From the NCBI GenBank assembly GCA_020444545.1, contig JAHLKT010000002.1, forward strand, positions 464,870 to 528,869: 64,000 bases of DNA, in the 5' to 3' direction. How positions within the stretch are numbered: the first letter of the stretch is position 1; each line of letters opens with the position of its first letter. The stretch comes from Desulfarculaceae bacterium. Its GTDB lineage: Bacteria; Desulfobacterota; Desulfarculia; Desulfarculales; Desulfarculaceae. Positions 13,755 to 54,046 of this stretch are shown here, one piece after another. The position numbers were made by a program, and so were the translations under genes. The notes beneath the pieces are model-generated. The model did no database searches, had not been told where the DNA came from, and saw nothing but the letters and a program-made list of their open reading frames with translations.

Positions 13755-14486
13755 CTAGCTCCGCTCCGTGGCCTTGCGCCGGCGGCGAACCCGCCAAGCG
13801 GCCAGACCGCCCAAGCCGCTGGTGAGCAGCAGCAGGGTGGCCGGTTCCGGGGTGCCCGCGCCGCCGCTGCCACCCGCGGTCTGGTAGGTGACGGTTATAA
13901 ACCCGTTCACCGTGGGCGGGGTGCTGCCCTGAGAGATGCCGCTGGCGCCGGTCACGCTCAGGTAAGTGCCGATCACCCCGGTGATGTTAAAGGTGCCCGC
14001 GCCCACGTAATCGGACCAGGCGCTGGCAACCACGTTGCCCGAGAGACTGTTGGTGATGTTGGCGCCGGGCAGCTCACCGTAGTCGATGCCGCCGCTTTGC
14101 ACGCCCACGCCGTCGCCGTCATCCGAGCCCAGGCTGTAGTCGCCGCCGACCACGGCGGTCACCGGCGCGGCCGGGTTGGTGAGCACGGTGGGCAACAAAG
14201 GCCCGCCGGAGATGAGCCAGCCGCTGGTGCCGAAGTCCACATGGACGTTGGCCACGGGGGCGCTCTCGTTGTCCACCTGGGCCAGGCCGCCCACCGTTGT
14301 GAGGCTCAGCTCCACCACGATGCCGGTCAGATCGGCCAAGTTCCCGTTATACTGGTTGAAAAACATCACCGGAAAGTAATCGGGAACATCCGGACCAAAG
14401 GTTTGGGTCTGGATGATGTCAGCCTTGGCGGGAAGGGCCGCAGCCAGGAAAATCACAATGAAGACAAAAGCTTTGAGGTGGCGCAC
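13755..14486 (-). CDS. PEP-CTERM sorted exported protein, choice-of-anchor E-like (copy A)
   Basis: A 243-residue exported protein. It has a signal peptide ending near PAKA-D at residue 22, a beta-rich body beginning ADIIQTQTFGP that resembles the choice-of-anchor E domain, and a C-terminal sorting signal of the PEP-CTERM type: TPEPATLLL, a hydrophobic stretch and a basic RVRRRRK tail. Proteins of this class are recognised by an exosortase, which must be encoded elsewhere. The start is GTG 14486 with AAGGAGAG upstream. It is closely similar to the next gene upstream (14721-15461), by eye about 80-90% over the mature part. Confidence 0.85.
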   Translation of the reverse strand: MRHLKAFVFIVIFLAAALPAKADIIQTQTFGPDVPDYFPVMFFNQYNGNLADLTGIVVELSLTTVGGLAQVDNESAPVANVHVDFGTSGWLISGGPLLPTVLTNPAAPVTAVVGGDYSLGSDDGDGVGVQSGGIDYGELPGANITNSLSGNVVASAWSDYVGAGTFNITGVIGTYLSVTGASGISQGSTPPTVNGFITVTYQTAGGSGGAGTPEPATLLLLTSGLGGLAAWRVRRRRKATERS

Positions 14487-14651
14487 GGCCTATTCTCTCC
14501 TTGAAGGGCAGGCGGACCTAGCCGCCCTTTGGATTCACTTACAGTTATTATAGCCAATTCCCAATACGAAGCAATCATTCATAAAAATAAAAATTCATTA
14601 ACACGGTATTTTAACAAAGAGCCGTCTCGCGCGGTGGGGCCTGGGCATGGC

Positions 14652-14681
14652 AAACAGCCTCGCTCCGCTGGAGCGAGGCTG
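14652..14681 (-). terminator. Hairpin downstream of PEP-CTERM copy B
   Basis: A 12-bp perfect stem (14655-14666 with 14670-14681) followed on the minus strand by TTTG. It separates the two PEP-CTERM genes; the short U-run makes termination partial or uncertain. Confidence 0.6.
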
Positions 14682-14720
14682 GTCAGGAGCTTGGGGAGAA
14701 GAGGACCCCGGGCCCTGGGG

Positions 14721-15461
14721 TCAGACACTCTCCCTGCGCCGCCGGCGGACCCGCCAGGCGGCCAAGCCACCCAGGCCGCTGGCCAGAAGCAGCAGGCTGG
14801 CGGGCTCAGGAGTGCTGGCCCCACCGCCCACGGTCTGATAGGTGACGGTCACGGACCCGTTCACCGTAGGCGGGGTGCTGCCCTGGGAGATACCGCTGGC
14901 GCCGGTAACGCTCAGGTAAGTGCTGATCACTCCGGTGATATTAAAGGTGCTTGCGCCCACGTAATCGGACCAGTTGGTGGAGAGCACGTTGCCGCTCAGG
15001 CTGTTGCTCAGGGAGCCGCCGGGCAGCTCACCGTAGTCGATGCCGCCGCTCTGCACGCCCACGCCGTCACCGTCGTCCGCGCCCAGGCTGTAGTCGCCGC
15101 TGGTCACGGCGGTCACCGGCACGGCCGGGTTGGTCAGCACGGTGGGCAACAGAGGCCCGCCGGAGATCAGCCAGCCGCTGGTGCCGAAGTCAACGTGAAC
15201 GTTGGCGATAGCGGCGCTCTCGTTATCCACCTGGGCCAGACCGCCCACGCTGGTGAGGCTCAGCTCCACCACGATGCCGGTCAGGTCGGCCAAGTTCCCG
15301 TTGTACTGGTTAAAAATCAGCACCGGGAAGTAGTCGGGGACCTGCGGGCCGAAGGTTTGAGTCTGGATGATGTCGGCCGACGCGGGCAGCGCCACCAGCA
15401 GCAAGGCCAGAATCACGATTGTCGTTGTAAGGATACGGGCGAATTCCTCTTCTCCCTTCAA
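14721..15461 (-). CDS. PEP-CTERM sorted exported protein, choice-of-anchor E-like (copy B)
   Basis: A 246-residue paralogue of the neighbouring copy A, with the same ADIIQTQTFGP start of the mature region, the same internal GGIDYGELPG segment and the same sorting signal TPEPASLLL plus RVRRRR tail. Only a TTG at 15461 fits as a start for the whole signal peptide, giving a poor n-region of MKGEEEF. This TTG overlaps the position equivalent to the ribosome binding site of copy A. At the place where copy A has GTG, copy B reads CGT. The start may therefore be weak or altered. The pair is a recent tandem duplication. Confidence 0.8.
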   Translation of the reverse strand: MKGEEEFARILTTTIVILALLLVALPASADIIQTQTFGPQVPDYFPVLIFNQYNGNLADLTGIVVELSLTSVGGLAQVDNESAAIANVHVDFGTSGWLISGGPLLPTVLTNPAVPVTAVTSGDYSLGADDGDGVGVQSGGIDYGELPGGSLSNSLSGNVLSTNWSDYVGASTFNITGVISTYLSVTGASGISQGSTPPTVNGSVTVTYQTVGGGASTPEPASLLLLASGLGGLAAWRVRRRRRESV

Positions 15462-17290: not shown

Positions 17291-17911
17291 CTACAGCCCC
17301 GAGGTAGGCCTTCCGTCCCTGCGGATGCGCCAGAAGTGGTAGAGGCAGGCCACCAGCACCACGGCAGGCAGGGCCAGGCAGTGCAACACGTAGAACCTGA
17401 GCAGGCTGGCCTCGCCCAGGCTGGGGCCGCCCAGGAGCAGGCGCTGGAACAGCGGGCCCACCGCCGGGATGGAGCCCACCACCCCGGCGGCCACGGTGGC
17501 CGCGCTTTGGGTGGCCGGGTCCCAGCGCAGCACGTAGCCGCTCAGGTCCAGGGCCAGGGTGAGCACCAGCAGCAAGAGACCCACCAGCCAGTTGGCCGCG
17601 CGGGGGGGCAGGTAGGCCCCGCTCAAGAGCACCCGGGCCAGATGCAGGAACAGGGTGATGACCATGGCCTGCCCGGCCAAGAAGTGCAGCCGCCGGAAGA
17701 ACCAGGCAAAGGGCAGGTCCCCAGCCTCGGAGGCGAAGAAAGCGGCCGCGCCCTGGGGGGTGGGCACGTAGGAGAACATTAGCACCAGGCCGGTGGCCCC
17801 CAGCACCAGGAAGAGCAAAAAGCTGATGCCGCCCAGGCAGAAGGTGGCCGAGAAGCGGGTGCGCTCGGGGGGTATGCGCGGGGGGTGGATGTGCTCCAGG
17901 AACCCGGCCAT
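17291..17911 (-). CDS. Cytochrome b6-type subunit of a Rieske/cytochrome b complex
   Basis: A 206-residue four-helix cytochrome b N-terminal domain, the length of plastid b6 rather than full cytochrome b. Two histidine pairs for the b hemes are visible: one with 13 residues between the histidines (RRLHFLAG to FLHLAR) and one with 14 (VLHCLAL to LYHFWR). The 14-residue spacing is the b6 pattern. The segment FCLGGISFLLF places a cysteine at residue 25 where b6 proteins carry the cysteine that binds the extra heme c(n). It should oxidise menaquinol at the membrane. It is encoded three bases after the Rieske gene; the missing C-terminal domain is probably supplied by the divergent 18495-18860 gene. 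Confidence 0.85.
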   Translation of the reverse strand: MAGFLEHIHPPRIPPERTRFSATFCLGGISFLLFLVLGATGLVLMFSYVPTPQGAAAFFASEAGDLPFAWFFRRLHFLAGQAMVITLFLHLARVLLSGAYLPPRAANWLVGLLLLVLTLALDLSGYVLRWDPATQSAATVAAGVVGSIPAVGPLFQRLLLGGPSLGEASLLRFYVLHCLALPAVVLVACLYHFWRIRRDGRPTSGL

Positions 17912-17914
17912 GGT

Positions 17915-18403
17915 TTAGCCCTTCAGCCTCGTGGTGGGGGCCACCTCCGAGCCCGGCCGGGCGATGAGCGAGCCGTTGGGGCTTTTTTCCAAGGCCAGGT
18001 GACTCAGGCCCCGGGGGGCGGGGCCGGAAAGGCGCGCGCCGTCCAGGGCAAAGGAGGAGCCGTGGCAGGGGCACAGGAAGCGGCCGCTCGGTTGGTGCCA
18101 GGCCGGGCGGCAGCCCAGGTGGGGGCAGACCAGGCTGAGCGCGAAGTAGCCCTCGCCGTCGCGGGCCAGGGCCACCGCCCCCACGTCCCGCGCCTGCCCC
18201 ACGGCCAGGCCGGAGGGCGAGCCCAGGTCCACCGGGCCGGGCGTGGCCGGGCCTTCGCCCGAGGACACCAGGCGCAACACCGCGCCGATGCCCAGCCCCG
18301 CCGCGGCCACCAGGCAGGCCCAGGTGAACACGCCCAGGCCCTTGAGCAAGCCGCGCCGGCTGGGATCTGAAGAGCTTGCTTTGCTGGGGGTGGTTTGGCT
18401 CAA
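17915..18403 (-). CDS. Rieske iron-sulfur protein
   Basis: A 162-residue Rieske protein. The two cluster motifs are CPHLGC (near residue 110) and CPCHGSSF (near 130), supplying two cysteines and two histidines for the [2Fe-2S] centre; the four-residue gap and short insert match bacterial b6f-like Rieske proteins. The N-terminus has a twin-arginine-like SRRGLLKGLG before a hydrophobic segment, so it is probably exported by Tat and stays anchored. It lies just upstream of the cytochrome b6 gene in one unit and would pass electrons from quinol to a periplasmic acceptor, plausibly the multiheme cytochromes encoded next door. Confidence 0.9.
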   Translation of the reverse strand: MSQTTPSKASSSDPSRRGLLKGLGVFTWACLVAAAGLGIGAVLRLVSSGEGPATPGPVDLGSPSGLAVGQARDVGAVALARDGEGYFALSLVCPHLGCRPAWHQPSGRFLCPCHGSSFALDGARLSGPAPRGLSHLALEKSPNGSLIARPGSEVAPTTRLKG

Positions 18404-18494
18404 GGAAGCATCCTCGCGAATGAGGGGTTCGTCGCCTGGTTCATAGGATACCAGCAGGCTTGCCCTCGCGCCGGACAGGGGCTAGAGTTGATTC

Positions 18495-18860
18495 ATGGCT
18501 GAAAGCACCCGCGCCAATCTTGTCAAGAAAGAGGGGCTCTGCTCCCTGATCGTGCTGGCCCTCTTGGGCCTGGCGGCGGTGGCCTATCCCCTGGCCCCGG
18601 TGGGCTCGACCCCAACGGGCCATGCCGACGCGCCCTGGGTGTTCCTGGGATTTCAACAACTCCTGCGCTGGCTGCCGGTGGGAATCGGCGGCCTGCTCCT
18701 GCCCGCCATCGGCCTGGCCTTGCTGATCATCCTGCCCTGGCAGCGGGGCCAGCGCGGCAAGGCCATTCCCGCCTATCAGCTCCCCGCCCTGCTGGAGCTG
18801 CCCGCCTGGGCGGTGCTCCTGGGCTGGGCCGGGCTCACTCTTTGGACTTTGCTGGCCTAA
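18495..18860 (+). CDS. Subunit IV-like (cytochrome b C-terminal domain) membrane protein
   Basis: A 121-residue protein with three hydrophobic segments. The stretch APWVFLGFQQLLRWLPVG, followed by LLLPAIGLALLIILPW, resembles the start of the C-terminal cytochrome b domain (compare APWYFLGLQELL in bacterial subunit IV-like proteins). It would help form the quinol-oxidation pocket with the b6 subunit, but no PEWY motif is evident, so assignment rests on the helix pattern and context. It is transcribed away from the Rieske gene and overlaps the 3' end of the decaheme gene by 26 bases tail to tail. Confidence 0.6.
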   Translation: MAESTRANLVKKEGLCSLIVLALLGLAAVAYPLAPVGSTPTGHADAPWVFLGFQQLLRWLPVGIGGLLLPAIGLALLIILPWQRGQRGKAIPAYQLPALLELPAWAVLLGWAGLTLWTLLA

Positions 18861-20658
18861 AGGGCCACGACTCCTCCAGCGCCTTCAATAGCCAGCGATT
18901 GTAATTCTTGCCCGGCTCGAGCAGGCGCTTCAGCTCTTCCTGGCTGTAGGGCCGCGAGCCCTCCACCAGGAACTCCTGCTGCGCCTCGCCCTTCAGGTTC
19001 ACCACCCGAGTCCAGTCGCCCTTTAGGTCCAGGCCCTCGGCCCAGGGCTGCCACAGGCCCGGCGCCAGGGGGCTCTCTCCCGGCTTGGGCTTGCCCTCGC
19101 GGGTAAAGGTGAGCCCCAGGCCCAGGGCCTTGGCCGAGCCGTGGCAGTCGGCGCAGCCAACCGTTGGCCGGGCTATGGTGTGCGGGTTCCAGGGGGTGAT
19201 GCCCAGGCCGGGCTTGGGCACCCGCGCCTGCTGGGTGATCTTGCCTTGCTGGTTCATGAGGGTGACCACGTACTGGAAGCGGGGGTTGAGCAGATAGGTG
19301 CGCCCCTCGGGGCCCACGCCGTACACCCGCCAGAGCAGACGCCGGAACCAGGGCGAGACCACCCAAAGGCCGGGCCGCTTCTTGCCGCTCAGGTAATCAG
19401 CCGTTTGCACCCAGGGGCTCTCGCTGCTGCCGCAGACCAAGGGAGGGCAGAGCAGCTTGAAGGCCTGAGGGTCGCCCTGGGCGGCGATGGGCGACCACAC
19501 GCCGTAGGACATGCGGGTCTCCAGCATCACCTGCATGCCCCAGGCGCCGGGGTTGTAGGAGGCGTGGCAGGCATGGCAGGCCACCTTGGCGTGCTGGCTG
19601 ATGCGGTGGGCCACCGGGGCCTTTTTGCCGCCGGGCAGCAGGGGCACGGCCCGCGCCTTGCCGTCCAGCTTGCCGGTGAGCATCAGCTCCTTGCCCTTCC
19701 AGGCCAGGTTCACCTTGAGCGCGCCCAGGCTGGTGACCGGGCGGGCGTCGGGCTTCTTGCCAGGGGTGCCGTGGCAGGAGTAGCAGCGCACCCCCACGTG
19801 CTCCAGGCCCGAGCCGCCCAGGCGGCCGTCGCCCATGATCTCCGAGCGGGGGTGGCAGTCGATACAGGCCATGCCAGCCTTGAAGTGCGCGTCCGGGCGC
19901 ATGGGCCGCCACACCCGGTCCTGGATGAACTTGGGCCGCGCGCGGTCGGTCGCCAAGAAGCGGGCCGAGTCGCGGGCGTCACGAGCGGTGCGCCCGGCGT
20001 ACTCCGCCCCGGCTCCGCAGCCGCCGCCGTGGCAGGTGAGGCACTGGCTAACCGGCACCTTCTTGGTCAGGGCGTGGCCCTTGGGCTTTTGGTTGTCCGG
20101 TCCGTAGACCCGGTGGCAGGCCGCGCACCCGGCCGAGCGCCGCGCGCCGTCGCTGTCCGCGCCCTTGCCCCAGAGGTGGCAGCGCAGGCAGCGCCGCCTG
20201 AGGAAGTCGTCCACCGGCTTGCCGCCCCGGCCCGGGCCGGGCAGCTCCACCAAGGGCCACTGGTCGTGCGCCCCGTACTCCGGCGAGGCCTGGGACTGCT
20301 CGCCCCAGAGATGGCGGGTCTGGTTGATCAGGCCCAGGTTGGTGGCCATGGGCGAGAGGGCCACCTTTTCCGGCCAGCCCTTATGGCAGGAGCCGCAGGC
20401 GCGCTTCGCCTGGTCCAAGGCCGAGGGGTTGGCCGCCATGCCCTGGTGGCCTTTGGCGGCCTCGCCGGCCTCGCCGTCGCCCAGGTGGCAATAGGTGCAG
20501 GCCAGGCGCTTGTGGGGCTCGGCTTGGGGTGGCATGGGCGAGGCGATGTCCTTGTGGCACTCCCGGCAGCCCACGTCCGGCCCGGCCGGGGCGGCCAGGG
20601 CCGGCAGGGCGGCCAGGCACAGCCAGGCGATCAGCCCCACGGCGATGAGGCGCTTCAT
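18835..20658 (-). CDS. Decaheme c-type cytochrome
   Basis: A 607-residue secreted protein with a signal peptide (LPALA-A near residue 22) and ten CXXCH heme-binding motifs: CRECH, CTYCH, CGSCH, CLRCH, CAACH, CLTCH, CIDCH, CYSCH, CHACH and CADCH. The segment CIDCHPRSEIMGDGRL and the late KALGLGL region recur in the neighbouring undecaheme protein, so the two are paralogues. It is encoded after that gene with a 4-base overlap. With the Rieske and b6 genes downstream, a role as periplasmic electron acceptor of the quinol-oxidising complex is likely but inferred. No beta-barrel or membrane anchor is seen after the signal peptide. Confidence 0.88.
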   Translation of the reverse strand: MKRLIAVGLIAWLCLAALPALAAPAGPDVGCRECHKDIASPMPPQAEPHKRLACTYCHLGDGEAGEAAKGHQGMAANPSALDQAKRACGSCHKGWPEKVALSPMATNLGLINQTRHLWGEQSQASPEYGAHDQWPLVELPGPGRGGKPVDDFLRRRCLRCHLWGKGADSDGARRSAGCAACHRVYGPDNQKPKGHALTKKVPVSQCLTCHGGGCGAGAEYAGRTARDARDSARFLATDRARPKFIQDRVWRPMRPDAHFKAGMACIDCHPRSEIMGDGRLGGSGLEHVGVRCYSCHGTPGKKPDARPVTSLGALKVNLAWKGKELMLTGKLDGKARAVPLLPGGKKAPVAHRISQHAKVACHACHASYNPGAWGMQVMLETRMSYGVWSPIAAQGDPQAFKLLCPPLVCGSSESPWVQTADYLSGKKRPGLWVVSPWFRRLLWRVYGVGPEGRTYLLNPRFQYVVTLMNQQGKITQQARVPKPGLGITPWNPHTIARPTVGCADCHGSAKALGLGLTFTREGKPKPGESPLAPGLWQPWAEGLDLKGDWTRVVNLKGEAQQEFLVEGSRPYSQEELKRLLEPGKNYNRWLLKALEESWPFRPAKSKE

Positions 20659-22823
20659 CGCAGGGCCTTCCTTTCCCAGGCGCGGTGCTTGGCCTTGAGG
20701 TCGCCGTGGGGTCCAATGCGCTGCCAGGCCTTGGCCGGGTCGGCCAATACCGGGTCGTCGGGCTTGCGGTGACAGGGCAGGCAGCGGCCAAAGGCGATCA
20801 CCTTGGCGATCTCCTGCTTGTTCAAAGGCCGCGCGCCCTGGTGGGTGCTGCTCTGCAAGGGCTGGCCCTCGTTGTCCACCAGGGCGTCCCAGTCCGCCGT
20901 TTGGCCCACGGCCCGAAGGTCGGCCAGGGGCAGGGCGGCCAGGGAGCCCAGGGGCCGGGGCCCGCCGCCCAGGCCCAGGGCCTTGCCGCTCAGGTGGCAG
21001 GCCTCGCAGGGCCGCACCTCCTTGCGGGTGGTGTGGGGAGCGATGGGGGTCATCACGATGCCGCTGCCGATGAGCCGGGGCTTGGGCACCTTGAGCTCCA
21101 GGCCGGGCAGGGGCACTCTCTCTCCGTCCAGGGCGGTGTAGACCACCTGGCAGCCGGGTACGAAGGGCTTGATCAGGCCGCCGCCGCCGATGGCCAGCAA
21201 GGGGTCCACGAAGCGGTAGAGATCGCGGCTCTCTTGCCAGGTGCCCTTGGTGTGCTTGTGGGTGTCATAGGACCACATCAGGCCGCCGGGCTTGCGGTAG
21301 TCGTGGCACCCGTAGCACTGCGGGGTCCAGCGGCTGTGGCAGGCCTGGCAGGCCAGGCGCTGGTGGCCGGGCTGGCGGTGGCGGGCGTCCTGGCCTACCA
21401 GGGGCACCGGGTGCTTCTTGCCCGGCTTGCTGCGCGAGTAGAGCACCAGCTTGCCGTCTTCTTGGCGCAGGTTGAGCAGGGGACGGCCCTTGGCGCTGAG
21501 CGCCAGGCGGGCGCGCTCGTCCAGGACCGGGCCCTTGTTGAGCGGGCCGTAGGCCGCCTCGTAGCGGGCATAGGCGTCCGGCGGGCCCAGGCGGGGAGGC
21601 CCGGCCGCGTCGCCGTGGCAGGTGGCGCAGGTGATCTCGGTTTGGTAGCGCATCCGGCCGTAGAGGCGTCCGTCGCCCATTATCTCGCGGCCCGAGTGGC
21701 AGTCGATGCAGCTCATCCCGGCGGCGGCGTGGGCGTCGGGCAACAGGGTGTGCACCCCGCGTCCGCCGCTGAGCTTGACCTTGGGGTCGCCCTCGCTCCA
21801 GGGGGTGCGGCCGTTTTCGTCTTCCACCCAGCCCTGGTAGTTGAGCCCCAGGCGGCCGGAGCGGTTGTGGCAGCGGCGGCAGTTCTCCTCGGGCGGGGTC
21901 TCGTGCAGCTGATGATAGGCCGCGTGCCCCGCTTCGTCGTGGTTCACGGTGGCGTCCAGGCCCAGGTAGCGGCCGGAGTTATCCCGCTGGCCGTGGCAGG
22001 CCGCGCAGCCCTTGCCGTGGGCCGACATACCGGCCTGGCGCTCGGCCCGCAGATGGCAGCGGGCGCAGAACTTGTTCCACTGCTCGTCGGCCACCTGCTT
22101 GGGCAGGGGCCCGACCGGGGGCCCGCCGGGAACCCTGACCAGCGAGGCCAGGGTGAGGGCAGGGGGCGGCACCGGCCGCCGGGGGTCGCTGATGGCCGCG
22201 GTGGCCACCCGGGCGGTGTAGTCGTCCTGGGCTCCCCAGGCCACCCGCAGGCTGGTGAGCACCCCGGTCATGGTGGCCATGATGGTGCGCTCCACGCGGT
22301 AGACCATGTTTGCCGCCGGGTCGCCCCGTCCGGCGTGGCAGCGACCGGCCGCCGCGCCGCGCCCCCCGCAGGAGGCCCGCGCCGTGCCCAGGCGCGAGGG
22401 GTTGCGCCCCATGAGGCCCCGGTGAGCCTCGTCCTTGGTCAGGGCCAGGCCCTGGCCGCCGTGGCAGGCCACGCAGCCCATGGCCTCCACCGGATGGGAG
22501 GGGCTAATCTGCTTGAGGCCCTGGTGGCAGGTGAGGCAGCGTTCGGGCTGGCCGAAGGCGGTGGGCACCACCTCGATGACCCGGGGCGGCTGCTCGGCCA
22601 CCTCGCGGGCCCGCTCGGCCGCGCGCCGGGGGGCCATGCCCGCGGCCACCAGGCGGTCCTGGAGCTGCAAGGCGCGGCGTTCATTGATGGCCCGCACTTC
22701 CTGGTGCCAGGGGCGGTGCATCTGGGCGTACCAGGCCAGGCCCAGCACCGCGCACAGGGCGGCGGCGGCCAGGGCAAAGGCCCAGGCCCATTTGTGGGAT
22801 GATTTTGACTCGCCGCCGGCCAT
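20655..22823 (-). CDS. Membrane-anchored undecaheme c-type cytochrome
   Basis: A 722-residue protein with one N-terminal membrane helix (residues about 12-30, AFALAAAALCAVLGLAW) that lacks a clear cleavage site, so it is probably an uncleaved anchor. Eleven CXXCH motifs follow: CLTCH, CVACH, CARCH, CAACH, CRRCH, CIDCH, CATCH, CQACH, CYGCH, CEACH and CLPCH. An additional SCGGRGAAAGRCH segment near residue 155 could be a degenerate or CX9CH-type site. Together with the decaheme paralogue the pair offers at least 21 hemes. The start codon at 22823 overlaps nothing; a divergent gene begins 39 bases away. Confidence 0.87.
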   Translation of the reverse strand: MAGGESKSSHKWAWAFALAAAALCAVLGLAWYAQMHRPWHQEVRAINERRALQLQDRLVAAGMAPRRAAERAREVAEQPPRVIEVVPTAFGQPERCLTCHQGLKQISPSHPVEAMGCVACHGGQGLALTKDEAHRGLMGRNPSRLGTARASCGGRGAAAGRCHAGRGDPAANMVYRVERTIMATMTGVLTSLRVAWGAQDDYTARVATAAISDPRRPVPPPALTLASLVRVPGGPPVGPLPKQVADEQWNKFCARCHLRAERQAGMSAHGKGCAACHGQRDNSGRYLGLDATVNHDEAGHAAYHQLHETPPEENCRRCHNRSGRLGLNYQGWVEDENGRTPWSEGDPKVKLSGGRGVHTLLPDAHAAAGMSCIDCHSGREIMGDGRLYGRMRYQTEITCATCHGDAAGPPRLGPPDAYARYEAAYGPLNKGPVLDERARLALSAKGRPLLNLRQEDGKLVLYSRSKPGKKHPVPLVGQDARHRQPGHQRLACQACHSRWTPQCYGCHDYRKPGGLMWSYDTHKHTKGTWQESRDLYRFVDPLLAIGGGGLIKPFVPGCQVVYTALDGERVPLPGLELKVPKPRLIGSGIVMTPIAPHTTRKEVRPCEACHLSGKALGLGGGPRPLGSLAALPLADLRAVGQTADWDALVDNEGQPLQSSTHQGARPLNKQEIAKVIAFGRCLPCHRKPDDPVLADPAKAWQRIGPHGDLKAKHRAWERKALR

Positions 22824-22862
22824 GGGTTAGGCTACCAGCGTCTGTGCAAGCGGAGGTGGTTC

Positions 22863-23261
22863 ATGATTTCTCGGTTCGCCAAACTGGCCGAAGCCATGCG
22901 CCAGGAATTGGATGCCGTTCCCCAGACCATGCGTCAGGATGCGGTGCTTCGTCAAGCCCTGGTGTGCCTGCTCTATCAAGCGGTCAAGGAAATGGGCCTG
23001 GTGCCCCTGGCTTCCTGGAAACCGCCCCGCTCCACCCGCGAGAGCATCGACCTGGTGGGGGTGGACCCCTCGGGCGAGGTGCCCAAGGTGATGATCGCCT
23101 TCGCGGTGGACCCGCTGGTGGATCTGCCCAAGGTCAAGTCCCTGGGCTGGGTGGAGTGCGAGGACAAGATCGTGGTGACCTTCAGCCAACGCAAGGACAA
23201 GGTGGACCAGAGCGCCTTTTTCCTCACCCCCGCCCTGAGCCACGTCAATCTCTACGACTAG
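22863..23261 (+). CDS. Conserved-looking soluble protein of unknown function
   Basis: A 132-residue protein with no signal peptide or membrane helix. ATG 22863 is preceded by GGAGGTGGTTC, a strong ribosome binding site. The first 60 residues are helical and basic. The second half reads IDLVGVDPSGEVPKVMIAFAVDPLVDLPKVKSL in two pieces of alternating hydrophobic character. The spacing of Asp, the FAVD segment and the Lys recalls a nuclease-like (PD-(D/E)XK) beta core, but this is only a resemblance. It is divergent from the undecaheme gene and convergent with tusA. Function unknown. Confidence 0.65.
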   Translation: MISRFAKLAEAMRQELDAVPQTMRQDAVLRQALVCLLYQAVKEMGLVPLASWKPPRSTRESIDLVGVDPSGEVPKVMIAFAVDPLVDLPKVKSLGWVECEDKIVVTFSQRKDKVDQSAFFLTPALSHVNLYD

Positions 23262-23274
23262 GCCCCGCGCCCGA

Positions 23275-23302
23275 TAAAAAGGCCGGCCCCGAGGGGCCGG
23301 CC
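23275..23302 (-). terminator. Rho-independent terminator of the yedE-tusA unit
   Basis: A perfect 10-bp stem (23281-23290 with 23293-23302) is followed on the minus strand by TTTTTATC. It may also serve the plus-strand gene ending at 23261. Confidence 0.82.
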
Positions 23303-23335
23303 CAAGAATTCGCAGCTATGGCCGCTTGGGCGCGC

Positions 23336-23572
23336 TTAGCCCTTTTTCACGTAAAAGCTGATGTAACCGTCCTTCTGCTCTTCGCCCAGGAACTCGTCGC
23401 CCGAGCGCTCGGTGAAGGCGGGAAGGTCGTTGCGCGTGCCGGGGTCGGTGCCCTGGATCTCCAGGATCTGGCCCGGGGAGAGCTTTTTCATGATTTTTTT
23501 GGTCTTGAGGATGGGCATGGGACAGCTCAGTCCGCGCGCGTCCAAAATCTCATCAGCGGTCCACTCGGCCAT
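23336..23572 (-). CDS. TusA/SirA/YeeD-family sulfur carrier protein
   Basis: A 78-residue TusA-like protein. The hallmark is DARGLSCPMPILKTKK near residues 11-26, where the cysteine of CPMP carries persulfide sulfur. It ends in a beta strand DGYISFYVKKG typical of the fold. It is encoded 52 bases after the YedE-type membrane protein. In other bacteria YeeE/YedE proteins import thiosulfate or related sulfur species and hand them to such carriers (TsuA/TsuB), so a sulfur-trafficking role is likely. A selenium role is also known for YedE-linked TusA-like proteins and cannot be excluded. Confidence 0.88.
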   Translation of the reverse strand: MAEWTADEILDARGLSCPMPILKTKKIMKKLSPGQILEIQGTDPGTRNDLPAFTERSGDEFLGEEQKDGYISFYVKKG

Positions 23573-23624
23573 AACGTCTCTCCTTTAAGTCTGGTTATTC
23601 TGCCAAAGCCAATATCTATACTAC

Positions 23625-24794
23625 TTACACTATGGTAAGGCTATCGGTCTCTTCGTTCCAGGCCATGATCGCCCACCAGACCAGCATCACCACCGCGGTG
23701 ATGACGATGGCCCAGAAGTAGTCGGTGACCATGGGCAGGAAGATCGGCTTGCCCCAGGAACTGGCCACGTCCCGGGTCCACACATAGTTCTTGAACAGAC
23801 TGTTGCTCATGGAGAAGGTGATCACCGCCAGGATCAGCTTGAACTGACCCTCGCCGGCCCGCCACACGCTGCCCGAGCCGCAACCGCCGGCCAGGAGCAT
23901 GCCGATGCCGAAGATCACGCCGCCCACCAGACCGCCGATCCAGTGGTGGTAGATGTAGATCATCTGCCAGTCGGTGCGGAACCACTTGATGGCGAAAAAG
24001 CCGAACACGCTCAGGATGACGCTGAGGGCCACGGCGCGGGTGGCCACCGCCTCGCCGGTCATGAAGGGGTCGCGGAAGGAGCGCACGAAGCAGAAGCGGC
24101 AGCGCTGGATAACGATGCCGATGCCCACCGCGGCGAGCATGAGCACCGCCTCCTGGGTGTAGGCCCTAAAGGACAGGCAATAGGCCCAGCCCACCAGGAA
24201 CAGGAAGAACAGGGCGCCCAGCCAGGGCTGCACCTTGGGCCACTCGATGCCGCCTTCCTTGGAGGCCTTTTGTTTGGGCGGCTTCATGTCAATGTGCTCG
24301 ATCTCCCACATCAAGTACTTGAGCCCGATGAGCGCGCCCACCAGCAGGCCGGCCATCATGGCGAAGCCGGAAACCGAACCGGCGGCCAGCGCGGTGTAGA
24401 AGCCACCCACGTTGCAGCCGCCGGCCATCACCGAGCCCACGCCCATGAACACGCCGCCCACTAGGCCCTTGCCCAGCTCCCAGCGGGGGGCGTTGCGCCA
24501 GGCGAACTGGCGCGACAACAGGGCCGCGCCAAAGGCGCCGAACAACAGGCCCCAGGTGAGGATGGAGGTGTTGGACAGAAAGAAGGCATAGCCGGGCGCG
24601 GTGGGGTAGAGGCCGATCCAGTAGAAGAGCCAGTCGCTCCACACGCGAAGACCGCCGGCCACGCCCCAGGGACGTCCCGCGGCCATACAGATAATGCCCA
24701 ACAGGGCCAGGAGTATGCCGCCCACCCACAAGGGCCAGTTGCGGTCGAACAGCAAGGAGTAGCCCTCTTTGAACTTCTCCACCAAAACGCTCAT
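23625..24794 (-). CDS. YeeE/YedE-family membrane transporter (sulfur or selenium species)
   Basis: A 389-residue membrane protein with ten or so helices. Three conserved cysteine-bearing motifs of the family are present: GSVMAGGCNVGGF, the loop RCRFCFVRSFRDPF, and MLLAGGCGSGSVWR. The cysteines are proposed to relay thiosulfate or persulfide through the membrane. The start is ATG 24794 with GGAGGT seven bases upstream; a longer frame to 24836 has no ribosome binding site. It is the first gene of a two-gene unit with tusA and has a strong promoter upstream at 24896-24924. Confidence 0.87.
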   Translation of the reverse strand: MSVLVEKFKEGYSLLFDRNWPLWVGGILLALLGIICMAAGRPWGVAGGLRVWSDWLFYWIGLYPTAPGYAFFLSNTSILTWGLLFGAFGAALLSRQFAWRNAPRWELGKGLVGGVFMGVGSVMAGGCNVGGFYTALAAGSVSGFAMMAGLLVGALIGLKYLMWEIEHIDMKPPKQKASKEGGIEWPKVQPWLGALFFLFLVGWAYCLSFRAYTQEAVLMLAAVGIGIVIQRCRFCFVRSFRDPFMTGEAVATRAVALSVILSVFGFFAIKWFRTDWQMIYIYHHWIGGLVGGVIFGIGMLLAGGCGSGSVWRAGEGQFKLILAVITFSMSNSLFKNYVWTRDVASSWGKPIFLPMVTDYFWAIVITAVVMLVWWAIMAWNEETDSLTIV

Positions 24795-24895
24795 GCACCT
24801 ACCTCCGCCACGATGGATTGTGCCTGGGATGTACACGGCTTGCGGCGCACCAGAGCGCCGTCCGGGGCCGTGGCAAACCGGGACATAGTCCCCAG

Positions 24896-25197: not shown

Positions 25198-26352
25198 ATG
25201 GCGTGGAACAAAGGCAAACCCCTAAGCCGCCCGGCCTTGTTGGCGGCGCTGTTGGCCGCGGCCTTGGCCTTGGCCGGCTCGGCCGCGGTGGGGAGGGCGG
25301 ACAGCCCCCAGGCCAAGCCCATCGACGGCAAGGCGATTTATCAACAGGCCTGTCTGGCCTGTCACGGCCCGGACGGCAAGGGCGAGCCCGCCGATCGTTT
25401 GGCCTTCAAGCCCCTGCCGCCGGACTTCACCGATTGCAGCTTCGCCAGCCGCGAGGCCAACCGGGACTGGCTCATGGTGGCCCAGGAGGGCGGCCCGGGC
25501 CGGGGCTTCAACATCATTATGCCCGCCTTTGGCAACGCCCTGAGCAAAGAGCAGCTCTTGGCGGTGATCAACTACATGCGCACCTTTTGCAAGGACAAGC
25601 GCTGGCCCCGGGGCGAGCTGAACCTGCCCCGGCCCATGTTCACCACCAAGGCCTATCCCGAGGACGAGGCGGGCATCCAGGTGCTGTACAACCCCTCGAC
25701 TCCGGGCAGCGTGAAGAACAAGGTGTTCTTCGAGACCCGCATCGGCCCCCGGGGGCAGGTGGAACTCTCCTTGCCCTACGACTGGCTGCAAGTGGATGAC
25801 GCGGGCGGCGGCACCTCCTGGAACAACGGTATCGGCGACGCGGCGGTGTCCTACAAGCAGGTCGTTTACGCCAGCCTGGAAACCGGGGCCATCGTAGCCC
25901 TGGGCGGCGAGCTGATATTGCCCACCGGCGACCAGGACAAGGACCTGGGCAAGGGCACCGCGCGCTTCGAGCCCTACGTGTCCTATGGCCAGCTCCTGCC
26001 GGCACAGTTCTTTTATGAATTCCAGGGGGGAGGGGCCATTCCCCAGGACGGGGCCAAGGCCAACGAGGAAATCTTCGGGCGTTTGGCCGTGGGCCGCTGC
26101 TTCTACGCCGGGCAGTACGGCCGCCGCTGGACCCCCATGGTGGAGCTGCTGGCCTCCAAGGAGCTGGTGAGCGGCGAGGACACCCAATGGGACGTGGCCC
26201 CGCAGTTCCAGGTAACTCTCAGCGACCGGCAGCACGTGCGCCTGGGCCTGGGCGCGCGCATTCCCCTGACCCAAACCGACACCCGCGACGTGCAGTACGG
26301 CCTTTATCTGGTCTGGGACTGGTTCGACGGCGGGCTCTTCGAGGGATGGTAG
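25198..26352 (+). CDS. Monoheme cytochrome c fused to an outer-membrane beta-barrel-like domain
   Basis: A 384-residue exported protein. After a signal peptide (VGRA-D near residue 35) there is a cytochrome c domain with the single heme site CLACHGPDGKGEP near residues 51-63 and a distal MPAFG methionine near 111. From about residue 150 to the end the sequence is rich in alternating amphipathic strands with aromatic girdles (FFETRIG, LSLPYDWLQV, QFFYEFQGGG, YGLYLVWDW), as in transporter/porin barrels, and it ends with W. The start ATG 25198 follows AAGGGAGCG; a GTG at 25177 would overlap that site. The pentaheme gene follows eight bases later, so both probably act together at the outer membrane. 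Confidence 0.72.
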   Translation: MAWNKGKPLSRPALLAALLAAALALAGSAAVGRADSPQAKPIDGKAIYQQACLACHGPDGKGEPADRLAFKPLPPDFTDCSFASREANRDWLMVAQEGGPGRGFNIIMPAFGNALSKEQLLAVINYMRTFCKDKRWPRGELNLPRPMFTTKAYPEDEAGIQVLYNPSTPGSVKNKVFFETRIGPRGQVELSLPYDWLQVDDAGGGTSWNNGIGDAAVSYKQVVYASLETGAIVALGGELILPTGDQDKDLGKGTARFEPYVSYGQLLPAQFFYEFQGGGAIPQDGAKANEEIFGRLAVGRCFYAGQYGRRWTPMVELLASKELVSGEDTQWDVAPQFQVTLSDRQHVRLGLGARIPLTQTDTRDVQYGLYLVWDWFDGGLFEGW

Positions 26353-26360
26353 GTGATAGC

Positions 26361-27986
26361 ATGAAATCATTAATCAGCCTATTCACCGCCGTCCTTCTCT
26401 TGTCTCTGGGTTCCGTGGCCCTGGCCCAGCCCCAGCCACCGGCTCAGATATTCGTCACCTCGGACCGCTGCGTGGCCTGTCACAACGGGCTAAGGACCGC
26501 CGACGGCCGGGACGTGTCCATAGGTTTCGATTGGTCAGGGTCCATGATGGCCAACGCGGCCAAGGATCCCTACTGGCAGGCGGCCGTTCGCCGCGAGATC
26601 ACTGATCACCCCACCGCCTCGGCGGCCATCCAAAACGAGTGCTCGGCCTGCCACATGCCCATGAGCCGCTACACCGCCAAGATGCACGGCAACATGGGCC
26701 AGGTGTTCGCCAACCTGCCGGTGAACCTGGCCGCGCTCAACCCCGCGCCCAACGCCCTGCTGGCCTGGGACGCGGTGTCGTGCAGCATGTGCCACCAGAT
26801 CACCCCGGCCAAACTGGGCACCCCGGCCAGCTTCACCGCCGGCTTCGTGGTGGACAACACCATGCCCCTGGGCGCGCGCCCGGCCTACGGGCCTTTCGTG
26901 GTGGACCAGGGCCGCCAGCGCATCATGAGCTCGGCCTCGCAGCTAAAGCCCACTCCGGGCGCCCAGATGAGGGACGCGGGCCTGTGCGGCTCCTGCCACA
27001 CCCTCTACACCCACGCCCTGGGCCCGGACGGCAAACCGGTGGGCCGCCTGCCCGAGCAGGTGCCTTATCTGGAGTGGGAGCACAGCGCCTATGCCAGGGA
27101 AAAGCGCACCTGCCAGAGCTGCCACATGCCCAAGGAGCCCAAGCCCATGGCCATCACCTCGGTCATGGGGGTGATGCGCCAGCCCTTCAGCCGCCATTCC
27201 TTCAGGGGCGGCAACTTCTTCATGCTGGGCCTGCTCCAGCAGAACGCCCAGCCCCTGGGCGTCACCGCCCGGCCCCAGGACCTGGCCGCCTCGGTGGGGC
27301 GCACCAAAAAGCACCTGGAGACGCTCTCGGCCAAGGTCGAGCTGGTGGAGGCCAGGGTGCGCGGCGGCAAGCTGGAGGCCAAGGTGCGCCTAACCAACTT
27401 GGCCGGGCACAAGCTGCCCACGGCATACCCTTCGCGCCGGGCCTGGCTCTGGTTCCGGGTCACTGACGCCCAGGGCCGCGAGGTGTTCTCCTCCGGGGCC
27501 CCGCGCCCGGACGGCTCCATCGCGGGCAATGACAACGACCAGAACGCCCGGGCTTACGAGCCCCACTACCAGAGCATCACCCGGCCGGACCAGGTGCAAA
27601 TATACGAGGCCATCATGGCCGATACCATGGGCCAGGTGACCACCGGCCTGATCAAGGCGGTGCGCTACATCAAGGACACCCGCCTGTTGCCCCGGGGCTT
27701 CGACAAGGCCACGGCCCAAAACGACATCGCGGTGCAGGGCCCGGCCCGCCAGGACCCGGACTTCGCGGCCGGCGGCGACGTGGTGAGCTACGTGGCGCCG
27801 GTGGACCCGGCCCAGGGGCCTTTCAAGGTGAGCGTGGAGCTGTGGTATCAGCCCATCGGCTTCCGCTGGGCCCAGAACCTGGGCCTGGTGAACTCCGCGG
27901 AGAGCAAGCGCTTCCTGGGCTATTACAACGCCGCCGCCAAAAGCTCGGCCCTGCGCCTGGCCGCGGACAACGCCAGCGCCCGCTGA
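26361..27986 (+). CDS. Pentaheme c-type cytochrome
   Basis: A 541-residue exported protein with a signal peptide (SVALA-Q near residue 23) and five CXXCH motifs: CVACH, CSACH, CSMCH, CGSCH and CQSCH, all in the first 270 residues. The C-terminal half (from about 300) has beta-sandwich character (AKVELVEARVRGGKLEAKV followed by TNLAGHKLPTAYPSRR) and a HKLPT segment typical of the C-terminal domain in large multiheme cytochromes of deltaproteobacteria. The start is ATG 26361, just after the stop of the barrel fusion and with AGGTGAT upstream. It is probably the periplasmic or surface partner of that protein. A strong terminator follows. Confidence 0.85.
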   Translation: MKSLISLFTAVLLLSLGSVALAQPQPPAQIFVTSDRCVACHNGLRTADGRDVSIGFDWSGSMMANAAKDPYWQAAVRREITDHPTASAAIQNECSACHMPMSRYTAKMHGNMGQVFANLPVNLAALNPAPNALLAWDAVSCSMCHQITPAKLGTPASFTAGFVVDNTMPLGARPAYGPFVVDQGRQRIMSSASQLKPTPGAQMRDAGLCGSCHTLYTHALGPDGKPVGRLPEQVPYLEWEHSAYAREKRTCQSCHMPKEPKPMAITSVMGVMRQPFSRHSFRGGNFFMLGLLQQNAQPLGVTARPQDLAASVGRTKKHLETLSAKVELVEARVRGGKLEAKVRLTNLAGHKLPTAYPSRRAWLWFRVTDAQGREVFSSGAPRPDGSIAGNDNDQNARAYEPHYQSITRPDQVQIYEAIMADTMGQVTTGLIKAVRYIKDTRLLPRGFDKATAQNDIAVQGPARQDPDFAAGGDVVSYVAPVDPAQGPFKVSVELWYQPIGFRWAQNLGLVNSAESKRFLGYYNAAAKSSALRLAADNASAR

Positions 27987-28013
27987 GCCCAACCAGGGGC
28001 CTTATAGACCATC

Positions 28014-28046
28014 GGGGGCTTGCCCTAAGGGCAGGCCCCCTTTTTT
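28014..28046 (+). terminator. Rho-independent terminator of the cytochrome-barrel/pentaheme unit
   Basis: A 12-bp stem with one G-T pair (28014-28025 with 28029-28040) followed by TTTTTT. Confidence 0.9.
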
Positions 28047-28072
28047 AGGCGCCCCGTGCCGCTGGAAAGCGG

Positions 28073-28101
28073 TTGACACTGTGACGGCCCCCAGGTACAA
28101 A
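28073..28101 (+). promoter_or_regulatory. Sigma-70 promoter of the parvulin-TPR gene
   Basis: A perfect TTGACA (28073-28078) and TACAAA (28096-28101, four of six) with a 17-base spacer, placed just after the preceding terminator and about 45 bases before the start codon. Confidence 0.65.
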
Positions 28102-28152
28102 ACTGTAGCCGGCCTGACTGAGATAACGTAGTATTTTTGGAGATTTCAGCCC

Positions 28153-29646
28153 ATGAAATGGCGAGTGACCTGCCTGTTGGCCCTTTGCGCCTTTTTGTTC
28201 GTGGCCCTGGCGGCCCCCCTGGCCCATGCCGAGGGCACGGTGGACCTGGGCATCATCACCGTCAAGCAAAAGGATTTGGCCGACAACCTGCGCGCCCAGC
28301 TTCTCAAGGGCGCCAGCTTCGAGAGCCTGGCCAAAGCCAACTCCGTGGGCCCCGCCTCCTTCCGGGGCGGCCGTTTGGGCAAGGTGCCCAACACCCGGCT
28401 GCGCACCGAGTTCCGCGCCGCGCTCAAGGACCTGCCGCCCGAAAAGCCCAGCAAGGTCATTCCCACCGAAGAGGGTTACACCATCCTCATGCGCTTTGAC
28501 CAGGCAGACGCCTCGGCCGAGGCATCCCCCCGGGCGGTGCCCAACATGGACAAGTCCCAGGATTCGGCCTTCCGCTTCAGCAGCAAGGCCCCCAGCATGG
28601 ACGCCAAGCCGGAAACCCGCCCCGTTCCCGGTCCCCGATCCGGCCAGGCGGCCCAGGCTCCGGAGCCGCGGACCCTGCAAGGCCACGAGGCATCCTACCT
28701 GATCGCCCGGCGGCACGTGCTGGCGGGCATCGAGGCGCTAATCGGCGGTCAGCTCAAGCTGGCCGAGCAGAGCTTTTCCCGCGCCCTGGGCGAAAACCCC
28801 CGCGAAGACAGCGCCCAGTTCCTTTTGGAAATGACCCAGCAGGCGCGGGCGGGCAAGGTAAAGCCGGCCGCGGTGAAGCTGTTTGCCGAAGGCTTTGAGG
28901 CCGTGACTCAGGGTGATGGCAACAAGGCCCTGGAATTCTTTATGAAGTGCAAGAAGAGCGACCCCAACTTCTGGCAGGGCGACCTCTTCGCGGCCAACAT
29001 GCTGGCCGGCGCGGGCAAGATGGGCGAGGCCAAGGAAATCATTGAAAAGCAGGTGCTTGCCCGCAACCCGCGCTCCTACCGGGCCTACGTGACTCTGGGG
29101 CTCATGGCGGCGGACAGCAAAAAGCCCAACGAGGCCCGCCAGTACCTGGAAAAGGCCATCTCCATCAACCCGGATTTCGCCCAGGCCCACTACCAGTTGG
29201 GCATGGTGGCCCTGTACAGCCAAGACCTCAAGCTGGCCGAGACCCAGTTCAAGCGCACCATCACTCTGGACCCCTACAACGACCAGGGCTACAACAACCT
29301 GGGCCTGATCTACGCCTTTAAGCGCCAAGCCGCCGAGGCGGAGAAGATGTACAAGAAGGCCCTGGCCCTGAACCCCAACTATCCGGACGCCCACGTGAAC
29401 CTGGGCAACCTCTACGCCAGCCAGGGCAAGCTGAACCAGGCCATCGACGAGTATGTCAAGGCCTTGACCATCGATTCCAACTTCGCTCCGGCCTTCGGCA
29501 ACATGGCCGCCGCCTATGCCCTGAAAAAGGACTGGCCCGAGGCCATCAAGGCCGCGGACCGCGCCCTGGAGCTGGGCCAGCGGGTGCCCCAGTCCCTGCT
29601 GAACGTGCTGGCCCCTCACCGCGAGGCCGCCAAAAAGAAGAAGTAG
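28153..29646 (+). CDS. Exported parvulin-like/TPR protein
   Basis: A 497-residue exported protein with a signal peptide (APLAHA-E near 25). Residues about 30-115 resemble a parvulin-type rotamase domain: LLKGASFESLAKANSVGP, FRGGRLGKVPNTRL and EEGYTILMRFD follow the order of PpiC domains, though shortened at the start. A proline-rich linker (120-175) is followed by TPR repeats from about 190 to 490, with clear units such as INPDFAQAHYQLGMVALYSQ and LNPNYPDAHVNLGNLYASQG. Such proteins accompany multiheme cytochrome genes in deltaproteobacteria and may chaperone their folding or assembly; that role is inference. It has its own promoter. Confidence 0.78.
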   Translation: MKWRVTCLLALCAFLFVALAAPLAHAEGTVDLGIITVKQKDLADNLRAQLLKGASFESLAKANSVGPASFRGGRLGKVPNTRLRTEFRAALKDLPPEKPSKVIPTEEGYTILMRFDQADASAEASPRAVPNMDKSQDSAFRFSSKAPSMDAKPETRPVPGPRSGQAAQAPEPRTLQGHEASYLIARRHVLAGIEALIGGQLKLAEQSFSRALGENPREDSAQFLLEMTQQARAGKVKPAAVKLFAEGFEAVTQGDGNKALEFFMKCKKSDPNFWQGDLFAANMLAGAGKMGEAKEIIEKQVLARNPRSYRAYVTLGLMAADSKKPNEARQYLEKAISINPDFAQAHYQLGMVALYSQDLKLAETQFKRTITLDPYNDQGYNNLGLIYAFKRQAAEAEKMYKKALALNPNYPDAHVNLGNLYASQGKLNQAIDEYVKALTIDSNFAPAFGNMAAAYALKKDWPEAIKAADRALELGQRVPQSLLNVLAPHREAAKKKK

Positions 29647-53312: not shown

Positions 53313-54046
53313 GGATGAAAGCCGGCCACCAGGGGCAGGTGGTCCGAGGCGGCCCGGACCAAGGCGGGCTCGCCGCCCAGTTGATACTCGGCTTGCCAGG
53401 AGGCGGGGCGGTGCCAGATGCGGTCAAGGGGCAACAGCGGCGCGCGGGAGGGGAAGGTGGCCAGGCGGGGGCCGGGCTGGAAGGAGCGGCGCATGTTGCG
53501 CAGCAGGGCGGCCCAGGGGCGCCACTCGTTGAAGTCGCCCACCAAGATGTCCAGGTCGCCGCGCGGCGGTCCCATTTTCTCTAGCAGGCGGGTCATCTGG
53601 CGCTCCCGCTCCCCGGCGCGCAGGCCCAGATGGGTGGCCACCAGGCGCACTAGCTTGCCGCCGCGTTCCAGCAGCACCTCCAGGGCTCCCCGGGGCTCGC
53701 GACCGGGCTGGGAGAGGTCCCAGCGGCGCACCCCCCGCACCGGCAGGCGGGTGAGCACCGCGTTGCCGTAGTCGCCCCGCCCGTCTTCAAGGGTTGGCCC
53801 GGCTACGACCCGGTAGCCGGTGCGCCCGGCCAGGTCCTGAGCAAAGGTGGCGCAGCCTCCCCCCAGCGCGGGGCAGACCTCCTGCAGGGCGATCACCTGG
53901 GCCCCCAGGCTGTCGATTACCGCCAGGCTGCGCTCCAGGTCCTGGCGGCGATCGGAGCCCACCCAGCGGTGCACGTTCCAGGTGGCCGCCCGCAGCAGGG
54001 GGCGGCCCCGGCCGCCGGATGCGGCTGCCGCGAATCGTCCGATCAA
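53303..54046 (-). CDS. Endonuclease/exonuclease/phosphatase (EEP) family protein
   Basis: A 247-residue metal-dependent phosphoesterase. Family motifs occur in order: ATWNVHRW, VIALQEVCP, the histidine in THLGLRAGE, LVGDFNEWRP and the late RAASDHLPLVAGF. Together they supply the catalytic Asn, Glu, His, Asp-Asn and Asp-His. The start is a TTG overlapping the stop of the PLD gene (TTGA), with GGACGAGG upstream. An in-frame opening further upstream lies inside the PLD gene and shows no EEP sequence, so it is not used. Substrate may be a phospholipid head group, nucleic acid or inositol phosphate; coupling to a PLD protein favours lipid. Confidence 0.82.
   Translation of the reverse strand: MIGRFAAAASGGRGRPLLRAATWNVHRWVGSDRRQDLERSLAVIDSLGAQVIALQEVCPALGGGCATFAQDLAGRTGYRVVAGPTLEDGRGDYGNAVLTRLPVRGVRRWDLSQPGREPRGALEVLLERGGKLVRLVATHLGLRAGERERQMTRLLEKMGPPRGDLDILVGDFNEWRPWAALLRNMRRSFQPGPRLATFPSRAPLLPLDRIWHRPASWQAEYQLGGEPALVRAASDHLPLVAGFHPPA

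Follow-up and report, generated by a model that had tools for sequence, protein, structure and literature searches.

A tandem gene pair encoding a predicted cytochrome c–barrel fusion and a pentaheme cytochrome in Desulfarculaceae, a candidate outer-membrane redox unit

To our knowledge, Cyc2 is the sole fused cytochrome–porin known, and it is as yet a model that its substrate enters the pore and encounters one heme there. Cyc2 consists of a short cytochrome region with the motif AXPXFAR[Q/K][T/Y] and a 16-strand OprO/P-like barrel, and provides a precedent for a heme domain and a barrel in one chain, with a heme that is modelled where the barrel opens to the periplasm (PMC8406198). Porin–cytochrome conduits, such as MtrCAB, OmbB-OmaB-OmcB, and OetABI, combine a surface cytochrome with a large barrel, of 26 strands in MtrB, whose interior accommodates a multiheme protein as a chain of its own, and units of this kind are known in Desulfobacterota (PMC10553843). 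In the Geobacter ext cluster, ExtI, with 12 predicted strands, and the five-heme selenoprotein ExtKL are separate proteins, whose genes have a small gene between them and are found alongside ExtM to ExtP; loss of ExtI impairs the reduction of selenite and tellurite (PMC5877670). Moreover, the COG4313/PF13557 family includes the channels Pput2725 (PDB 4RL8) and FapF (PDB 5O65). The solved COG4313 barrel has 12 strands and an N-terminal plug on the periplasmic side, with a bore of 10-12 Å without the plug and almost none with it, and is, thus, largely occluded (PMC4493636).

The window, i.e., the whole stretch of 64,000 nucleotides analysed here, lies on contig 2 of a 4.38 Mb Desulfarculaceae genome (G000) and contains the fusion gene P0001 (25198-26352, + strand), which encodes 384 amino acids and was characterized through Pfam matches, an AlphaFold2 model, fold matches, and alignments. 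A signal peptide (about residues 1-35, by inspection) precedes a class I monoheme cytochrome c domain at about residues 40-131, where the sole CXXCH of the protein occupies residues 52-56 and the invariant Met108, located in MPAF, was assigned by inspection as the Met ligand. Residues 43-129 match the Pfam families Cytochrome_CBB3 (7.8e-10) and Cytochrom_C (2e-9), and residues 175-269 match PF13557 (Phenol_MetA_deg) with 24.7 bits against a gathering score of 22; the three families are matched in all five homologues scanned. Both parts are joined by a conserved linker at about residues 132-155, WPRGELNLPRPMFTTKAYPEDE, which is nearly invariant in the alignment of the fusion proteins.

An earlier note on this DNA had read a cytochrome c domain and a barrel-like region in one chain, and both the Pfam domains and structure prediction agree with it. 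Using 28 aligned sequences, AlphaFold2 predicts 12 strands between residues 156 and 375 (25663-26322, + strand), with pLDDT values mostly of 75-93 over them: 156-165, 171-182, 186-200, 206-226, 231-241, and 256-267 for strands 1-6, and 271-282, 291-304, 309-322, 330-340, 347-356, and 366-375 for strands 7-12. With five homologues only, pLDDT was 31, and it was the deeper alignment that resolved the barrel; two alignments placing the N-terminal strands of stand-alone barrels on the cytochrome domain were left out. Foldseek returned FapF as the top match of the barrel; 4RL8, a channel of COG4313, and two porins with 12 strands, NanC and KdgM, were matched as well. In VIA-align, the barrel superposes on FapF with Z 23.6 (2.5 Å, 223 residues), on 4RL8_A with Z 21.9 over 218 residues, and on KdgM with Z 20.3, where 171 of the 171 KdgM residues fit at 2.0 Å. 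The sequence profile also matches 4RL8 (4e-5), and the signature of the family, composed of the invariant D214, P242, and G251 together with PTGD and LGxG, is common to P0001 and 22 stand-alone PF13557-like barrels. It is, therefore, a good prediction that the C-terminal region of P0001 forms a 12-strand barrel of outer-membrane type, and the outcome named in the earlier note as refuting its reading, a C-terminal region predicted to be something other than a barrel, did not arise. The textbook barrel formula, with an assumed tilt of 40 degrees, gives a backbone diameter of about 22 Å for 12 strands versus about 48 Å for 26.

The predicted fusion protein shares with Cyc2 the signal peptide, an N-terminal cytochrome with one CXXCH on an outer-membrane barrel, and a heme predicted at the periplasmic mouth. 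However, it has a full class I cytochrome domain, a COG4313-like barrel, and a tandem pentaheme gene. The assignment of the fusion as a Cyc2 protein was rejected, since AXPXFAR[Q/K][T/Y] is absent upstream of CXXCH in all six fusion proteins and 12 strands are predicted instead of 16. With the COG4313/PF13557 channels it has in common the Pfam family, the fold (Z 21.9-23.6), the 12 strands, and an N-terminal segment before strand 1, whereas a heme motif was found in none of 26 related stand-alone barrels and FapF has another N-terminal periplasmic part. A search of PMC texts found no cytochrome–PF13557 fusion. By analogy with these channels, the conserved linker (here residues 136-157) is no more than suggestive of their N-terminal segment, which enters the lumen from the periplasmic side. 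We infer the placement of the heme domain relative to the barrel, because AlphaFold2 models the cytochrome half poorly, with pLDDT values of about 35-55 between residues 50 and 110.

The stop codon of P0001 (26350-26352) is separated by 8 bases from the ATG (26361) of the next gene, which matches the spacing given in the earlier note. This gene, P0003 (26361-27986, + strand), was recognized by its five CXXCH motifs and by sequence comparison as encoding a pentaheme c-type cytochrome of 541 amino acids. The motifs lie at residues 37, 94, 141, 209, and 251, and the additional conserved His residues 83, 241, 279, 350, and 402 would suffice to give each of the five hemes a bis-His ligation, while the C-terminal domain is free of heme. 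A signal peptide was judged by eye, and a pattern search of the pentaheme proteins from all six pairs found no lipobox, nor was another surface anchor recognised. In all five members scanned, the MtrC/MtrF II-IV domain model matches the N-terminal region. Moreover, the NLxGHKLPTxYPSRR region relates P0003 remotely to 5ZE8 and MccSep. In the wider pentaheme family, two relatives (L067:2876-5968 and L095:6807-9869) are open reading frames of 1020-1030 amino acids with six CXXCH and no adjoining fusion gene, and a solo pentaheme relative (L091:6790-8640) has a lipobox (LSGC); this family may, thus, consist partly of lipoproteins, unlike its paired members. The pair resembles porin–cytochrome conduits in that an outer-membrane barrel is encoded together with a multiheme cytochrome, but it was rejected as a member of the MtrCAB type on the basis of its barrel (about 22 Å versus about 48 Å) and of the absence of a lipobox in the six pentaheme proteins.

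The pairing of both genes is constant wherever the fusion was found. In all six fusion-bearing genomes, i.e., G000, G001 (a related Desulfarculaceae metagenome assembly, record JAIPEN01), G007, G282, G322, and G475, they are arranged in tandem and 4-8 bases apart. The fusion and pair recur at 49-79% identity in the five genomes other than G000, a degree of conservation from which it is concluded that they are not the product of chance. The pairwise identities of the fusion and pentaheme proteins run parallel (r 0.96 for 15 pairs), a value that is descriptive, as it comes from six sequences with a common phylogeny. P0001 and the pentaheme gene were found in three of the eight genus members. In the genome search, which was carried out within the phylum on samples that are draws, with an initial filter scoring few candidates per genome, a full-length relative of P0001 appeared in 4 of 395 genomes spread over the phylum, and pentaheme relatives above 1000 bits were restricted to the same four. 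In G282, G322, and G475, which belong to another class of the phylum, the pentaheme gene scores at least 868 bits and the fusion gene adjoins it in each of the three, whereas no fusion gene adjoins the more distant pentaheme relatives (549 bits or less) at any of the nine loci with inspected neighbours. A scan of genome contigs recovered one locus, in G001, and searches of plasmids and of viral contigs gave no match. Judging from these comparisons, the two cytochrome genes are a conserved and rare two-gene unit.

This unit is found in five different surroundings (one common to G000 and G001, and one each in G007, G282, G322, and G475), and most relatives lack it. Together with the patchy distribution, these surroundings favour the movement of the pair. 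In G000, the site of the pair is bordered on the left by a gene for a YeeE/YedE-type sulfur/selenium transporter (23625-24836, - strand), identified by sequence comparison, and the neighbouring locus on the right, outside the pair, encodes the PpiC-TPR protein P0002 (28153-29646, + strand), which contains a PpiC rotamase domain (4.9e-10, residues 40-113) and TPRs. The earlier note had proposed P0002 as a partner or assembly factor of the barrel, a suggestion that gene content and synteny contradict. Full-length PpiC-TPR orthologues are present in seven of the eight genus members, as compared with three for the pair; in G002, G004, G005, G006, and G007, the YeeE gene is followed directly by the PpiC-TPR gene, with about 240 bases between them and no pair. 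In G007, the PpiC-TPR gene and the pair are located on different contigs, the latter with a sensor kinase gene on one side and the end of its contig on the other. PpiC-TPR was, therefore, rejected as a member of the module, and, as far as synteny indicates, the pair has either entered or left a YeeE/PpiC-TPR locus that is fixed in other respects. A terminator-like hairpin found by sequence scan at 28014-28040 (+ strand), with a 12-pair stem followed by TTTTTT, would end the two-gene unit, and promoter-like boxes of the PpiC-TPR gene lie at 28073-28101 (+ strand; TTGACA at 28073, 17 bases, and TACAAA), which makes the remark in the earlier note on a promoter of its own reasonable. By eye, the other genus members inspected have TTGACA and a TA-rich box in the corresponding position, and a strict scan does not report them. 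Both elements point to the pair and the PpiC-TPR gene as separate units.

Sequence comparison and prediction are the basis for the domains, the 12-strand barrel, the tandem pairing, the patchy distribution, and the separation from PpiC-TPR. From them, we infer an outer-membrane location and an orientation for the fusion protein, and it is held with moderate confidence that the pair constitutes a two-gene outer-membrane redox unit, composed of a heme-tethered small-molecule channel and a soluble periplasmic pentaheme partner, a unit that probably deals with electrons on the periplasmic side of the outer membrane. The fusion protein would be a COG4313/PF13557-type 12-strand outer-membrane channel with a class I monoheme cytochrome c at its N-terminus, whose heme domain would be held where the barrel opens to the periplasm. 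By analogy with 4RL8, the conserved linker would act as a plug-like segment, as in the COG4313 family. The pentaheme protein would be secreted and soluble, and its electron exchange would involve both the tethered heme and the pool of cytochromes in the periplasm. The barrel would give a small redox-active compound a way to the periplasmic hemes or out from them, and no hemes would carry electrons through it. The narrow 12-strand barrel and the 10-12 Å bore of the COG4313 channel (PMC4493636) favour a heme at the channel mouth over an MtrCAB-style wire. The molecules assumed to pass through solved COG4313 channels are hydrophobic and give no pointer to a redox substrate, which counts against an explanation based on a channel. 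The barrel could serve as an anchor only, a closed COG4313-type structure that lets nothing through and fixes the monoheme cytochrome to the outer membrane, where it would serve the pentaheme protein or further partners in the periplasm. The solved barrel is largely occluded (PMC4493636) and a nearly invariant linker is what would be expected of a plug, but a barrel with no role other than anchoring could well have diverged in its interior, yet the barrel part retains a mean column identity of 73%, a weak argument with six sequences; this arrangement is considered unlikely.

The surroundings of the pair in the window bring metalloid reduction into consideration. An Ext-like redox locus recognized by profile matches (17291-22823, - strand) encodes a cytochrome b, a Rieske protein, and 10-heme and 11-heme cytochromes, of which the cytochrome b matches the ExtP model (4.7e-61) and the 11-heme cytochrome the ExtM model (8.5e-103), all matches of the locus lying under the curated cut-offs. 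The locus, counted as 17291-24836, adjoins TusA and the YeeE/YedE transporter, for which the selenium YedE/FdhT type is the best-matching model. Apart from G000, six genus members retain the locus as one block, complete in five of them, the contig of G004 ending inside the ExtM-like gene. Elsewhere in the window, two similar tandem genes (13755-15461, - strand) each terminate in a PEP-CTERM motif, and one open reading frame (54043-56232, - strand) combines phospholipase D-like domains with a VTT membrane domain. As in the ExtI-ExtKL system, a small porin-like protein is encoded near a five-heme cytochrome with ExtM/ExtP-type genes adjoining, and the channel might admit an oxyanion of the selenite or tellurite type to be reduced by the pentaheme protein, as proposed for ExtI/ExtKL. 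The 12 strands predicted for ExtI and the effect of its loss (PMC5877670), the remote relationship of the pentaheme family to ExtKL/MccSep, and the presence of ExtM-like proteins in all six pair-bearing genomes are in line with this possibility. However, ExtM-like proteins also occur in genomes without the pair, and the pair adjoins the ExtM-like locus only in G000 and G001, which makes this adjacency weak evidence of a joint function. P0003 is only a remote relative of ExtKL and was rejected as such, with 20.5 bits against the cut-off of 250 of NCBIfam NF040886, and the P0001 profile search, with E values up to 1, returned no ExtI model, although the profile set may hold none. Moreover, the true ExtKL gene of G000 lies elsewhere in the genome (G000:C11:5587-6738, L161), is multiheme with one in-frame TGA, and likely encodes a selenoprotein; it is located downstream of ArsR-, permease-, and thioredoxin-like genes. 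A metalloid-reducing function of the pair is, on balance, improbable.

A true trans-outer-membrane conduit, as suggested by the earlier note, where the fused heme and the pentaheme protein would pass electrons between periplasm and surface with one of them reaching the outside, is very doubtful: the barrel and cytochrome in one chain, the pairing with a multiheme partner whose N-terminal part matches MtrC/MtrF, and the porin–cytochrome units of the phylum (PMC10553843) speak for it, but 12 strands form a barrel with too little room for hemes (PMC4493636), which makes a heme route through it unlikely, the membrane cannot be bridged by a single heme at the mouth, and the pentaheme protein has neither a lipobox nor a recognised surface anchor.

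Returning to the heme-tethered channel with its soluble pentaheme partner, the pair may tentatively be regarded as a second, independently evolved fused cytochrome–porin, namely a 12-strand small-molecule channel with its own heme on the periplasmic side and a dedicated pentaheme protein, encoded by a mobile two-gene cassette and oxidizing or reducing soluble redox compounds or shuttles on entry. Such a second fusion, with another barrel, another cytochrome, and a fixed pentaheme partner, would test the pore-entry idea for Cyc2 independently. Moreover, it would enlarge the set of genes from which outer-membrane electron exchange can be predicted in genomes.
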